Source: a virus. From it: DNA of 21,878 nt. The notes beneath the pieces are model-generated. The model did no database searches. It worked only from the letters and a program-made list of their open reading frames with translations, and had not been told where the DNA came from. The position numbers and the translations under genes are program-made. Location of the stretch: the IMG/VR virus record IMGVR_UViG_3300021963_000738, positions 1 to 21,878 of that record; one strand, given 5' to 3'. Shown piece by piece: positions 3,639 to 14,241 of this stretch (its first letter is position 1; each line of letters starts with the position of its first letter).

Positions 3639-4201
3639 AACTCCAAGACCTCACCATCGACCAGTTCCAGCGTATCGGAGCCATTGAGTTCTCAAGCGTC
3701 CTTGGGGACTACGACAAGCGTGCAGGGGTCGTTGCAATCGTTGAGGGGGTGGATATATCACTCGTCCGAGAAATGCCCGCCAAGAGCGTCCTAAAGCGTT
3801 ACAAGGCCATTATCAGCGAGTGGAACGCATTGCCTGCCCTTGGGTACAAGAGGCGGTTCAAAGCAGGCGGCAAATGGTGGATTCCGACGGTATTCACGGA
3901 TGAACTGACCGCTGGACAACTGATAGACCTCATGGACACGGATACGACGGACGAAAAGAAGTTGGTCCAAAACCTGCACCGCATCATGGCGACCCTTTGC
4001 AGGGAGGGCGGGTTGTTCGGTTACTTCCCCAAGAAATACGATGGGGCCAGTCACCAAGAGCGTGCCGAACTATTCAAGTCCCACGCCAAAATCGGAGATG
4101 TTTGGGGGGTGGTCAGTTTTTTTTTGCTAAGTTCAGAATCCTACTTGAAAGTTTTGAGCGACTATTCCAAGCACCTGACGAAGGGGATGCAGGCCCAGTA
4201 A
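3635..4201 (+). CDS. Tail assembly chaperone, zero-frame product (gpG-like)
   Basis: 188-residue acidic and helical protein, MKLQDLTIDQFQRIG and onward. I read it as the gpG-like tail assembly chaperone of a siphovirus, which coats the tape measure protein before tail-tube assembly. The C-terminal part contains DVWGVVSFFLLSSESYLKVL, where FFL at residues 162-164 is encoded by a run of nine T. An upstream ATG at 3620 exists, but 3635 is preferred because it forms the ATGA overlap seen throughout this cluster. The call rests on the slippery run with a long -1 continuation (next entry) and general helical character. It lies about 4.5 kb upstream of the tape measure gene, farther than in the lambda-like layout. 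Confidence 0.65.
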   Translation: MKLQDLTIDQFQRIGAIEFSSVLGDYDKRAGVVAIVEGVDISLVREMPAKSVLKRYKAIISEWNALPALGYKRRFKAGGKWWIPTVFTDELTAGQLIDLMDTDTTDEKKLVQNLHRIMATLCREGGLFGYFPKKYDGASHQERAELFKSHAKIGDVWGVVSFFLLSSESYLKVLSDYSKHLTKGMQAQ

Positions 4202-4380
4202 CCAATCCGCTTGCTGGCTACGGTTGGTTGATGGTCGTTTGGCGGATGGCCAACAAGGATGTACTGAAATTTGATGCCATCTTCGCAATGAAGGCGGTGG
4301 AGTTCCTGAACTACGCCCTGCTGATTCACGATATTTTGGAAGCGGAGCGGATGGAGGCTGAAAGAGCGAGAAGAAAGTAG
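3635..4380 (+). CDS. Tail assembly chaperone, predicted -1 frameshift product (gpGT-like)
   Basis: A -1 slip at the T run would join residues 1-164 of the zero-frame protein to the frame that continues AKFRILLESFERLFQ and ends at the TAG at 4378-4380, giving about 248 residues. The extension is clearly protein-like: it contains NPLAGYGWLMVVWRMANKD, then KAVEFLNYALLIHDIL, and a charged end rich in Glu, Arg and Ala. Lambda G/GT and many siphoviruses make a long chaperone form this way, with the extension recruiting the tail-tube protein. Without a slip, bases 4202-4380 would need a separate start; an in-frame ATG at 4231 is the alternative. Deposited annotations may show only one of the two frames. 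Confidence 0.6.
4117..4126 (+). promoter_or_regulatory. Programmed -1 frameshift site (T9G)
   Basis: Nine consecutive T (4117-4125) followed by G. In the zero frame the codons read AGT TTT TTT TTG, so the heptamer T TTT TTG at 4120-4126 has the X XXY YYZ form of a -1 slippery site. After the slip translation continues with GCT at 4126. I did not find a clear-cut pseudoknot or Shine-Dalgarno-like stimulator next to it. Confidence 0.55.
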
Positions 4381-4388
4381 TATATTTG
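4381..4388 (+). promoter_or_regulatory. Promoter -7 element TATATTTG upstream of the tRNA-like gene
   Basis: TATATTTG matches the Bacteroidetes -7 consensus TAnnTTTG exactly, and it lies five bases before the start of the tRNA-like gene at 4393, the distance expected for transcription starting at or near the tRNA 5' end. No good TTTG -33 element stands at the usual spacing. Confidence 0.45.
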
Positions 4389-4392
4389 CATT

Positions 4393-4485
4393 AGTCAGGT
4401 GGCGGAATGGCAGACGCTATACGTAGGGTACAACCGTTAATTAAAAGGGCGTGTACTCGCACAGGTTCGAATCCTGTCCTGACTA
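4393..4485 (+). tRNA. tRNA-like gene, Leu-like outline, anticodon not assignable
   Basis: The acceptor stem AGTCAGG (4393-4399) pairs fully with CCTGACT (4478-4484), followed by discriminator A4485; no CCA is encoded. The D arm GCG...CGC encloses a loop with GG (GAATGGCAGA), and the TGGCGGAATGGCAGACGC outline is typical of tRNA-Leu. The T arm ACAGG-TTCGAAT-CCTGT (4461-4477) is perfect. The 43 bases between the D and T arms do not fold into a normal anticodon arm. The best helix found, TATACG with CGTGTA, encloses 26 bases rather than 7, and a GCG/CGC pair could be a small variable arm. It may carry a small insertion, be degenerate, or fold in a way I cannot work out by eye. Confidence 0.6.
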
Positions 4486-4502
4486 CACATTCCAGCACGG
4501 GG

Positions 4503-4510
4503 TACATTTA
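4503..4510 (+). promoter_or_regulatory. Possible -7 element TACATTTA
   Basis: TACATTTA followed by CCC lies five bases before the ATG at 4516, in the short gap after the tRNA-like gene. It differs from TAnnTTTG only at the last base. The identical TACATTTACCC occurs at 18469. If it is a promoter, the transcript would have almost no leader. Confidence 0.3.
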
Positions 4511-4515
4511 CCCAC

Positions 4516-5184
4516 ATGGAAACCAAAGTTCTCGCCAAGTTCGGAAGCGGCAGTTTGAAGGAGGTCAACATTGCCGACCTTCAAGCCATTGGTATAACCG
4601 TAGGCCCGAAAGGTGGAGGCGTTGACCCAAGGCAGCAGGTGCTGATTGATTGGTTGAAGAATATCATCGCCCTCGCACAAAAGAACCTGCTCACAGGTCG
4701 GGAGGACGGCAAGGATGTGAACGCCAAGGGAACGCTATCCGCAAGCCTTGATTTTGACCCTATCCCCTTGACTGCCGAAAAGATTGCGGTCAACTTGCTC
4801 GCCAACCCTTATTGGAAATTCGTGGACCAAGGAGTGCGGGGGACCGTCAGTTCAACCCGTGCGCCAAACTCACCATTCTCGTTCAAGAAGAAGGGTGGAG
4901 GCAAGAGCGACCAAGTTGGCCCGATGACCCAAGCCATTGCGGACTGGATTACCGACAAAGGGATTTTGGTCACCCCGACCTATTCCCGTGAGAAGAAAGC
5001 CATGCGGACGGTGGAGGAGCAGAAACTCGCAGACGCAAGGTCTATCACCTACTTTGTCCGCAGGCGTGGACTTTACGCCACCAAGTTCCTCAGCAACGCT
5101 CTCACCCCCGAACAAATAGATTTGCTCGTCAATACTATTTCCGAGGTCTTGGGCAAGCAGGTCAGCCTTTCAACTTCCCGATAA
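4516..5184 (+). CDS. Tail completion / neck protein, HK97 gp10-like
   Basis: 222-residue protein. The region GTLSASLDFDPIPLTAEKIAV followed by NPYWKFVDQGVRGT resembles the HK97 gp10-like family, whose members bind at the head-tail interface or complete the tail. The middle (residues about 115-135) is Lys- and Gly-rich with SFKKKGGGKS. The C-terminal YFVRRRGLYATKFLSNAL ends in a helix. It starts just after a short gap that holds the TACATTTA motif and is followed by a tail protein gene after three bases. No domain beyond the gp10-like one is recognised. Confidence 0.6.
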   Translation: METKVLAKFGSGSLKEVNIADLQAIGITVGPKGGGVDPRQQVLIDWLKNIIALAQKNLLTGREDGKDVNAKGTLSASLDFDPIPLTAEKIAVNLLANPYWKFVDQGVRGTVSSTRAPNSPFSFKKKGGGKSDQVGPMTQAIADWITDKGILVTPTYSREKKAMRTVEEQKLADARSITYFVRRRGLYATKFLSNALTPEQIDLLVNTISEVLGKQVSLSTSR

Positions 5185-13120: not shown

Positions 13121-13152
13121 GGGCCATCCTTTCGGGGGTGGCCCTTTTTTTT
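13121..13152 (+). terminator. Rho-independent terminator after the tail-tube gene
   Basis: GGGCCATCC (13121-13129) pairs with GGGTGGCCC (13136-13144) around TTTCGG, nine base pairs with one G-T, followed by eight T. This would end the transcript of the tail-tube gene. Confidence 0.85.
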
Positions 13153-13153
13153 G

Positions 13154-13161
13154 TACCTTTG
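13154..13161 (+). promoter_or_regulatory. Promoter -7 element TACCTTTG before the glycosyltransferase
   Basis: TACCTTTG matches the Bacteroidetes -7 consensus TAnnTTTG and lies three bases before the ATG at 13165, directly after the terminator. It would restart transcription for the downstream operon with a leaderless or nearly leaderless message. A TTTC at 13130 lies about where a -33 TTTG would be, but it is a poor match. Confidence 0.5.
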
Positions 13162-13164
13162 GGT

Positions 13165-14241
13165 ATGAGAATTTGCATCGTTTACAACGCCCATCCAACG
13201 GGCTGCTCGTTCTATCGGCTGGAAATGCCGAACGCTTACCTCGGCGACAATTACACCGAGTTTGACTATGTATGCGTAGACAATATCGCCAATGTCAAAG
13301 ATGAAGACCTTAAGACCGTTGATATATGGCTTTTCAATCGCCTTTGGTGTCAAGGTACCTTGGACCAAATTCGCAATGTCTACAAGGCTCTCACGGCGTT
13401 TGGAGCGAAGGTGATATTGGACTTGGATGACTACTGGGTGCTGGAGAGCGGCCATATCATGTATCGGCACTACCTGTCCACGAAATTGGATGAGCAGATT
13501 CGTGAACACATCCGCTTGGCTGACCATGTGACCACGACCACGGAACACCTTGCGCAGAAGATACGCCTGCTGAACAAAGCCGTGACCATCCTCCCTAACG
13601 AGCCTTACGAAGCCTACCAGCAATACCTGCCCGACACGACGGCAGAACCCGAGCCGCACCTGTTCAAGATTGGATGGTTTGGCGGGGCGCAGCATCAGGA
13701 AGATATTGCGCTCGTTGAGCATTCCTTCGGCTTGCTGGCCCACGACCATTCCATTGACGGGAGATACAAAATCTACCTTGGCGGGTGGAACGACAACAAT
13801 CCAGTTTACGATGATTACGAGCGGATGCTATCGTGCAGGGGACTGAACAAGAACTACGGACGCATCCAAGCGGCTGACATTTACTCCTATGTCGGGGGCT
13901 ACAACTTCATCAACGCCACCATCGCACCGCTCCGAGATACCAAGTTCAACCGCCTCAAATCCGAGTTGAAGGTGGTCGAAGCAGGCTGGATGGGCAAGGC
14001 TATCATCGCCTCGGAAACCATCCCCTACACCGACATATTGGTCCACGGCCACAACGGCTTGGTCATCCCCTACGGGAAGAAAGACGCTTGGTACAAGGCG
14101 GTCAGGAAATTCGTGAACGAACCCGACTACGCTCGCTCACTTGCCGTGCAGTTGTCCAAGGATGTGCGTGAAAGGTTTGACATTACCAAGACCGCCGAGC
14201 GCAGAGCCGAACTGTACCGAAGTATCGGGCGCAAATTGTGA
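13165..14241 (+). CDS. Glycosyltransferase, GT-B (family 4)-like
   Basis: 358-residue protein with features of GT-B fold sugar transferases. The N-terminal Rossmann half starts MRICIVYNAHPTGCSFYRLEMP and includes WLFNRLW and AKVILDLDDYWVLE. The C-terminal half starts at KIGWFGGAQHQEDIALVE (Gly170 onward), and ELKVVEAGWMGKAIIASE near residue 270 resembles the glycan/nucleotide-binding 'E-x7-E' region of family 4. The frame also has an earlier start at 13138, but that lies inside the terminator hairpin; ATG 13165 directly after a -7 element is preferred. It stands between the tail-tube candidate and further structural genes, so it may act on virion proteins or the cell surface. Substrates are unknown. 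Confidence 0.8.
   Translation: MRICIVYNAHPTGCSFYRLEMPNAYLGDNYTEFDYVCVDNIANVKDEDLKTVDIWLFNRLWCQGTLDQIRNVYKALTAFGAKVILDLDDYWVLESGHIMYRHYLSTKLDEQIREHIRLADHVTTTTEHLAQKIRLLNKAVTILPNEPYEAYQQYLPDTTAEPEPHLFKIGWFGGAQHQEDIALVEHSFGLLAHDHSIDGRYKIYLGGWNDNNPVYDDYERMLSCRGLNKNYGRIQAADIYSYVGGYNFINATIAPLRDTKFNRLKSELKVVEAGWMGKAIIASETIPYTDILVHGHNGLVIPYGKKDAWYKAVRKFVNEPDYARSLAVQLSKDVRERFDITKTAERRAELYRSIGRKL

Follow-up and report, generated by a model that had tools for sequence, protein, structure and literature searches.

A tRNA-like element in an environmental virus record is one member of a class of phage RNAs that is apparently both undescribed and widespread, with hundreds of environmental sequences carrying unrelated inserts. 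The reading that we favor, and consider moderately probable, is that of a natural "tRNA scaffold," in which a tRNA-Leu-like body presents a swappable folded payload instead of the anticodon and variable arms. What was computed directly is a kept body, a set of dissimilar payloads at one locus, a payload fold that covaries, and the presence of one payload in a non-tRNA scaffold. The main point is the hypervariable, modular middle, which is invisible from a single sequence. The original prediction, a tRNA-like gene with an abnormal anticodon region, is confirmed as an observation and partly supported in its interpretation; of the four options that it offered, the best match is a tRNA-shaped RNA that has another job.

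Layout and detection of the element

The element occupies positions 4393–4486 of the window, by which we mean the entire 21,878-base virus record analyzed here, and is flanked on the same strand by two frames of the structural module, one of 127 aa that ends at 4380 and one of 222 aa that begins at 4516. Its acceptor, D, and T arms are perfect, as had been stated at the outset (7/7 acceptor pairs, a GCG/CGC D stem, and a 5-bp T stem). The order of its parts is AGTCAGG-TG-GCGGAATGGCAGACGC-(43 bases)-ACAGGTTCGAATCCTGT-CCTGACT-A-C, with the following features.

4381–4388 (+): TAnnTTTG-type −7 element TATATTTG, directly after the stop of the upstream frame
4393–4399 (+): acceptor stem, 5′ strand AGTCAGG, pairing 7/7 with CCTGACT at 4478–4484
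4400–4401 (+): U8-G9, between the acceptor and the D arm
4402–4417 (+): D arm GCGGAATGGCAGACGC, with a GCG/CGC stem, A14 A15, and GG; tRNA-Leu type
4418–4460 (+): payload, 43 bases replacing the anticodon arm and variable region; identical in eight orthologous loci
4421–4423 with 4450–4452 (+): putative crossing helix a, ACG with CGT, proposed from the letters alone
4426–4432 (+): payload helix b, 5′ strand GGGTACA; covariation among eight distinct sequences
4452–4458 (+): payload helix b, 3′ strand TGTACTC; stops two bases short of the T stem
4461–4477 (+): T arm ACAGG-TTCGAAT-CCTGT, 5-bp stem
4478–4486 (+): acceptor 3′ strand CCTGACT with A73 (4485) and C74 (4486), from the Rfam fold and the letters

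The promoter-like TATATTTG reported upstream is present and matches TAnnTTTG, which we take to be the −7 consensus of Bacteroidota promoters; its spacing to the acceptor is four bases, not the five first given. A promoter of its own is not general in the class, since TAnnTTTG lies within 40 bases upstream of just 20/220 unique elements (12 at the window's spacing). The window terminase is 50% identical to terminases of Flavobacterium psychrophilum phages, and the terminase and portal families match as well, which points to a likely tailed phage with a likely Bacteroidota host. A glycosyltransferase (phrog_7162) is encoded among the structural genes at 13138–14241 (+).

With respect to detection, the Rfam tRNA model (RF00005) scores the element at 39.2 bits (E 4.4e-7; 301-base search with lax filters), which exceeds the gathering score of 29 and thus places the match above chance; the tRNA model outscores one lower-scoring, unnamed match from the same clan. 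A 7-bp acceptor, a D stem-loop with GG, and a 5-bp T stem with a TTCRANT loop are all present. No 5-bp anticodon stem with a 7-base loop and U33 was found in the window element, in agreement with the earlier claim that the 43 bases between the D and T arms (4418–4460) hold no standard anticodon arm. The covariance model likewise yielded no regular tRNA with a clear anticodon, RF00005 placing 26 bases where a 7-base loop is expected. Default ARAGORN and a filtered whole-window Rfam scan both miss the element. Permissive runs, which had been suggested as a check, did return calls for 4201–4700, namely "tRNA-Pro(agg)" with a 21-base intron when introns were allowed and "tRNA-???" in a permissive run; the default run gave none. 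An ordinary tRNA is disfavored by the lack of a default ARAGORN call and of support for the proposed anticodon helix (see below), and a tmRNA by the presence of a D stem and the empty result of ARAGORN's tmRNA mode. A large variable arm, one of the options initially put forward, fails because no anticodon arm precedes it.

Payload replacement at an orthologous locus

The gene upstream of the element was recovered in 31 fetched loci at 78–87% identity up to the element. At these 31 orthologous loci, the middles fall into 10 families without detectable mutual similarity (acceptor pairing is a parser requirement in this set, as in the parsing of 475 three-prime halves and in the 418-element set described below). 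The window's own 43 bases are unchanged in eight orthologous loci whose upstream gene is 84–87% identical to that of the window; this identity could reflect recent transfer rather than constraint. Two large phage contigs, L307 (322 kb) and L382 (200 kb), have the same payload family too, L387 has it on the wholly different acceptor ACGGGGG/CCCTCGT, and 18/18 stretches found in a search with the window payload lie in tRNA bodies.

Relatives with a normal 7-base loop, proposed at the outset as support for an insertion, were obtained in part. Family 20, found at 8/31 loci (L091, L097, L124, L188, L206, L207, L218, and L224), shares the window's acceptor, and its L097 copy, on whose ARAGORN run the reading of the family rests, is called tRNA-Leu(UAA) with a 7-base loop; in this copy, however, one of the five anticodon-stem pairs is mismatched, the D arm is different, and the middle is dissimilar. 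When default ARAGORN was applied to one copy from each of the ten families, only family 20 was named, and one more (L383) was returned as "tRNA-???". Family 20 may be the likeliest hint of the body's origin, and it is the sole fact leaning toward a tiny insertion in an anticodon loop, an idea that is otherwise mostly unsupported. Specifically, the window middle has no detectable similarity to this tRNA-Leu(UAA)-like family, and nine more families, again dissimilar, are spread over the remaining 23 loci, which argues for replacement of the arm rather than insertion. The comparison indicates that payloads are swapped whole at one locus.

Folding of the payloads

In terms of payload structure, helix b (4426–4432 with 4452–4458) is paired in 56/56 cells among the eight distinct sequences of the window's family, the window included. 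Variants of its GGGTACA/TGTACTC strands are GGGTATA/TATACTC, GGTAACA/TGTTATC, GATAACA/TGTTATC, and GAACACA/TGTGTTC. Three pairs are changed on both sides; the covariation score of 0.541 was reached by 0/500 shuffles, and the bare number of doubly changed pairs by 66/500. Crossing helix a consists of 3 bp that are invariant across the eight aligned sequences, with position 4452 common to both helices if b is 7 bp long. As for the helix noted originally, TATACG (4418–4423) with CGTGTA (4450–4455), its letters can pair around the 26 enclosed bases, but the outer pair fails in 4/8 aligned sequences and no double change is seen.

These results bear directly on a decoding tRNA interrupted by an intron or insertion, such as tRNA-Pro(AGG) with a 21-base intron. 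Such a tRNA is what intron-allowing ARAGORN returned, and eight of the 31 orthologous loci do carry family 20 with its tRNA-Leu(UAA) copy. Nonetheless, the proposed anticodon stem is the one that loses its outer pair in half of the aligned sequences and shows no double change, and it competes with the supported helix; furthermore, the body is Leu-like and not Pro, and the other middles, as judged by eye, lack common halves of one anticodon arm. Exons joining to a conserved regular tRNA were not found either, the window middle being without the arm of family 20. We regard this reading as very improbable.

Preference for a helix beside the T stem extends beyond the window's family. Among 202 dereplicated payloads, 46 have a helix of −7 or better whose 3′ strand stops exactly two bases short of the T stem, as compared with a mean of 10 and a maximum of 16 in 60 single-base shuffles, while other tails fall nearer to expectation (one base, 22 versus 16; three bases, 17 versus 10.5). 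Payload families 3, 5, and 14 keep this T-stem-proximal helix through changed bases. Given the 3′ helix, a crossing helix that pairs the start of the payload with the loop, forming a pseudoknot, reaches −7 or better in 38/68 cases (shuffle mean 22.8, maximum 30), and its average strength lies above that of every one of 100 single-base shuffles. A dinucleotide-shuffle test agrees on the crossing pairs (71/202 versus 36, maximum 51). Nested pairs of an anticodon arm and a variable arm are also raised in the 202 representatives against dinucleotide shuffles (50 versus 31, maximum 46, at −12; 27 versus 16, maximum 27, at −14). Nested folding of the payloads is only slightly stronger than in flanking controls, which may contain tRNAs (mean z −0.72 versus −0.44; p 0.0006).

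Several other candidates for a common feature were considered. A single closing "anticodon stem" around the whole middle was rejected as a general rule, since the weakest cut gives 53/202 versus a mean of 47 in dinucleotide shuffles. The strongest cut gives 13 payloads versus 5.5, over the shuffle maximum of 11, and such a stem may be true of a minority. Anticodon arms of the 5-7-5 type show no excess, with 22/418 within four bases of the D arm versus 36 in shuffles, a count that excludes nearer arms already sorted as normal. No convincing shared payload motif was found beyond a CCGAAAGG-type loop, and antisense or guide complementarity of the 202 payloads to neighboring phage DNA showed no excess within the fetched loci (mean −0.02 bases).

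Occurrence of a payload outside the tRNA body

One payload family was found in two settings. It is carried by tRNA bodies in L197 and L187, and elsewhere (L191, L237, L245, L252, and L256; about 80 bases each) it lies between AGAGTAAG and CTTACTCT, which form a plain stem. This stand-alone setting has a T run downstream in 4/5 loci and TAnnTTTG a few bases upstream in 5/5, and the inner helix of the payload changes by compensation between the two settings, in a comparison of four sequences. A second family looks similar (L098 and L108 versus L044). More broadly, 61 payload matches fell outside the parsed elements; among 40 inspected by eye most were in elements missed by the parser or at contig ends, and no tRNA body surrounds at least six, which belong to families 52 and 58. 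The recurrence of a payload in a non-tRNA scaffold argues that the payload may be the part that functions, with the tRNA body serving to carry it.

A reading in which the body does the work alone is that of processing punctuation, with the body as an RNase P and 3′-nuclease cut signal between genes or tRNAs and the middle as a neutral spacer. The position of the window element between two same-strand structural-module frames would suit such a role, as would the hypervariable middle and the frequent occurrence of elements within tRNA clusters. A neutral spacer, however, predicts neither a 7-bp helix kept by double changes nor the reuse of a payload in another scaffold, and the payload is identical in eight orthologous loci despite 84–87% identity of the flanking gene. 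We therefore consider punctuation improbable.

Selection on the body and its tRNA-Leu character

The body varies in sequence while keeping its shape. Pairing acceptors include AGTCAGG/CCTGACT, AGTCCTG/CAGGACT, AGTCAAG/CTTGACT, AGTCCAG/CTGGACT, AGTGCAG/CTGCACT, AGTTAAG/CTTAACT, AGTAAGA/TCTTACT, and others; because the parser required pairing, it is the variety of these acceptors, not their pairing, that constitutes evidence. Within the window's family, 4/7 acceptor pairs are changed on both sides, all four in the single homologue L387. T stems, for which pairing was not required, vary with compensation (AGAGG/CCTCT, GAAGG/CCTTC, and ACTGG/CCAGT). The elbow is also retained, with U8-A14 in 186/220 elements, GG in 205/220, and the T loop TTCGAAT in most, and the Levitt pair 15:48 covaries (A-U 264, A-C 14, G-U 5, G-C 9; Fisher p 3.5e-8). 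Taken together, these observations suggest that the body is under selection as an RNA shape.

Two further readings are weighed by the same data. The first is a recombination target, with the constant arms as sites of homologous exchange in a cassette platform that has no common biochemical role. Constant ends around dissimilar middles at one locus are what it would predict, as is the same payload on different bodies; yet the T stems and the L387 acceptor keep pairing rather than sequence, and 15:48 covaries, which argues for selection of RNA shape and not of DNA identity, so that we hold this reading to be quite unlikely. The second is a decayed tRNA pseudogene, another of the options raised originally. 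Default ARAGORN makes no call on the window element, and a near-normal tRNA-Leu(UAA)-like family sits at the same locus in 8/31 loci. Decay is disfavored, however, because double changes preserve pairing in the body as well as in the middle; perfect arms and hundreds of relatives with paired bodies also stand against it, and it appears scarcely credible.

The scaffold body resembles tRNA-Leu in particular. In the class (297 elements), A73 has a frequency of 0.95 and A15-U48 of 0.79; among the phages' own tRNAs the corresponding values are 0.99 and 0.99 for Leu and 0.86 and 0.90 for Gln, the next closest. D-arm similarity is 0.68 for the class, 0.74 for Leu, and 0.29 for Gln. The consensus 5′ half shares an exact stretch of 22 bases with an annotated Salmonella tRNA-Leu, and the class is probably descended from a phage tRNA-Leu. 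According to a review (PMC9976931), the features on which E. coli LeuRS relies are A73, A15-U48, G18G19, and the elbow, and a tRNA-Leu without its anticodon and variable arms stays active with this enzyme. The class thus keeps much of what LeuRS requires, given its retention of A73, A15-U48, GG, and the elbow. In the window, A73 (4485), G18 G19, and the D-loop/T-loop elbow are present, and position 48 is C (4460) so that the Levitt pair is A15-C48 rather than the A15-U48 of tRNA-Leu; because of this pair, leucylation of the window member may be weak. A15-U48 is found in 5/8 aligned sequences of the window's payload family.

Size and boundaries of the class

A scan of viral contigs with the D-to-T-arm pattern returned 21 stretches, mostly ordinary tRNA-Leu, and located the exact window arms with other middles in L004/L015, L010, and L021. 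The 3′ half of the body occurs in at least 120 IMG/VR stretches, and variant-acceptor patterns gave 97 and at least 120 stretches, some of them ordinary tRNAs. In the first loci, a usable 5′ half was found for 234/243 three-prime halves (230 at a stricter score), and the 220 unique elements from these loci have middles of 3–132 bases (median 52). The enlarged set of loci contains 418 unique abnormal-middle elements in 242 loci, with middles of 4–161 bases, and abnormal middles of at least 25 bases form 276 families. Left out of the element set were 52/475 three-prime halves without a pairing acceptor partner; loci were found by body search, and phages without a body at the locus are uncounted. 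The conserved AGT..ACT end is partly selected by the search patterns, and 98% of elements have a C directly following position 73. L045 holds nine elements in 5 kb (the later parser records at most eight per locus), and several multi-element loci are rich in normal tRNAs.

A middle was scored as abnormal when no 5-bp stem with a 7-base loop and U33 started 0–2 bases past the D arm, a rule that passes some tRNAs and sorts some class members as normal. It missed the anticodon arm of family 20 because this arm begins five bases into the middle as cut. Of the 418 abnormal elements ARAGORN called 83, assigning both an amino acid and a three-letter anticodon to 59 of them and Leu to 16; it also called 146/169 elements sorted as normal. 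Since ARAGORN calls these 83 and family 20 reads as tRNA-Leu(UAA), some of the counted elements may be real or recently real tRNAs; this check slightly lowers our confidence in the scaffold reading and slightly raises the odds of an intron or insertion and of decay. Orthologous-locus families 0, 1, and 7 are also tRNA-looking, and a few elements with the window-type acceptor resemble true tRNAs (L067, L091, and L264). Conversely, ARAGORN skips 335/418 unique elements and labels some tRNA-Ser, -Pro, -Glu, or tRNA-???, and it is because a tRNA finder skips or mislabels its members that the class has been hidden so far.

Additional departures from the common layout were seen. An extra hairpin in the D loop was noted in 17 candidates, at least one of which (L051) fitted the search expression falsely; members include L178, L283, L314, L327, L329, L133, L088, and L151. 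The family 8 payload occurs both with and without this hairpin, which argues that hairpin and payload are independent modules. L035, L051, L081, and L151 (orthologous-locus family 2) have an apparent second T arm (GGTCGGTTCGAGTCCGATGG) near the D-arm position. L089, L142, and L079, examined by eye, are short members whose middle is a hairpin with a small 3–6-base loop replacing the anticodon loop.

Distribution and genomic neighbors

The class seems to be viral. Scanning genome contigs of 84,980 species for the body's 3′ half gave 12 stretches, each of them from a MAG or an uncultured bin, and by eye the frames beside the elements in L157 and L158 resemble phage replication genes. The body pattern was present in 1/395 genomes of one phylum, namely the bin holding L158. 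The window payload was found in 0/395 genomes under strict filters and in 0/6 records, in searches without a positive-control genome. The exact full 3′ half was absent from 50,697 records of isolated phages (best 60 of 1,467 matches; top match 87% over 94%). Members with other acceptors occur in the 735-kb record LR756501 and in MW202828, a circular genome of 60.8 kb that came from a spring.

No class-specific gene partner emerged among the 22 most widespread neighbor families in 291 loci. The three most widespread of these belong to the window's own lineage, and the commonest neighbor outside it, a protein of 269 aa, accompanies 17 loci at a distance of about 0.9 kb. Other structured RNAs were also encountered. 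A freshwater-1 RNA (RF02979; L051:4124–4186 (+); 70.1 bits versus a gathering score of 72) adjoins tRNA-like elements, and similar stretches are present in L200, L212, L078, and L165. At L044:7609–8193 (−), a phage tmRNA adjoins an intron, the tmRNA match overlapping the last part of a group I intron match. A tmRNA at L085:553–939 (−) lies beside three tRNA-like elements in a 94-kb phage contig.

Proposed function

Building on the scaffold reading, we propose that the RNA would be transcribed, cut out, and trimmed in the manner of a tRNA by RNase P, 3′ processing, and CCA addition. It would be stabilized and probably leucylated, given that LeuRS does not need the missing arms, and it would be unable to decode. 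The payload would then be the active part, with every payload binding its own host or rival-phage molecule, and as targets change, payloads would be exchanged through homologous recombination at the constant arms. That payloads probably act on the host or on rivals is suggested by their being hypervariable and multiple, and this is the weakest step. In its broadest form, which we offer only tentatively, Bacteroidota-type phages would use a host-chargeable tRNA-Leu chassis for an open-ended arsenal of small RNAs against different host or rival targets, exchanged like cassettes; as part of the same tentative proposal, targets might include a defense enzyme, the signal molecule of such an enzyme, or a translation factor contacted via the charged tRNA end.

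A related possibility is that the element evades defense as a decoy, luring tRNA-cleaving or tRNA-sensing systems with a tRNA shape that lacks a cleavable anticodon loop. In the parts of two reports consulted here, phage tRNAs are described as evading anticodon nucleases (PMC10264068) and retron effectors (PMC11555353); the complete tRNA elbow would also serve such a role, and the hypervariability suggests an arms race. On the other hand, the window element has no anticodon loop to cut, and one payload occurs without a tRNA body, and we judge a decoy to be unlikely.

If the payloads of the proposed scaffold do act on hosts, the class would amount to a collection of several hundred natural RNA effectors that already come with a handle for expression and pull-down. 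Should the body be leucylated, the question arises of what a charged, non-decoding tRNA does in the infected cell. The arsenal, should it prove true, would be an RNA counterpart of variable anti-defense gene islands. The class also makes the role of some "odd" phage tRNAs testable.

Comparison with known systems

Such a class is not named in the sections of the open-access literature covered by our search, including those of PMC2864571 and PMC13015707. Defense-evading phage tRNAs are likewise phage-encoded and tRNA-shaped with an altered anticodon region, but as presented in part of one report (PMC10264068) they stay tRNAs with anticodon-loop mutations, whereas the window element has no such loop.

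Bacterial tRNA-Leu shares with the class its D arm, A73, U8-A14, A15-U48, and GG, as seen in the phages' own tRNA-Leu; it differs in that the window element has neither an anticodon arm nor a class II variable arm and that its acceptor starts with A1-U72. In tmRNA, a tRNA-like domain has its anticodon arm replaced by other RNA, including pseudoknots, and its D loop lacks a D stem. By contrast, the GCG/CGC D stem of the window is paired in 8/8 aligned sequences, members of the class are shorter than the 374-position tmRNA model (RF00023), and tmRNAs occur separately in L044 and L085. GOLLD-type RNAs are linked to phages, metagenomes, and tRNAs. They resemble the class as large structured, non-coding bacterial RNAs (PMC12286853) but are, by description, of far greater size and have no tRNA body at their base.

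The closest likeness is to the laboratory "tRNA scaffold" used for RNA production in E. coli, in which, according to the portion of the source consulted, the acceptor, D, and T arms are kept, the anticodon stem-loop is the insertion region, and host factors recognize the scaffold (PMC3753655). Whereas the laboratory scaffold is engineered, the phage class is apparently natural, with many exchanged payloads on a tRNA-Leu-type body, so that nature would here be performing the RNA engineers' trick of embedding a folded RNA in the body of a tRNA.
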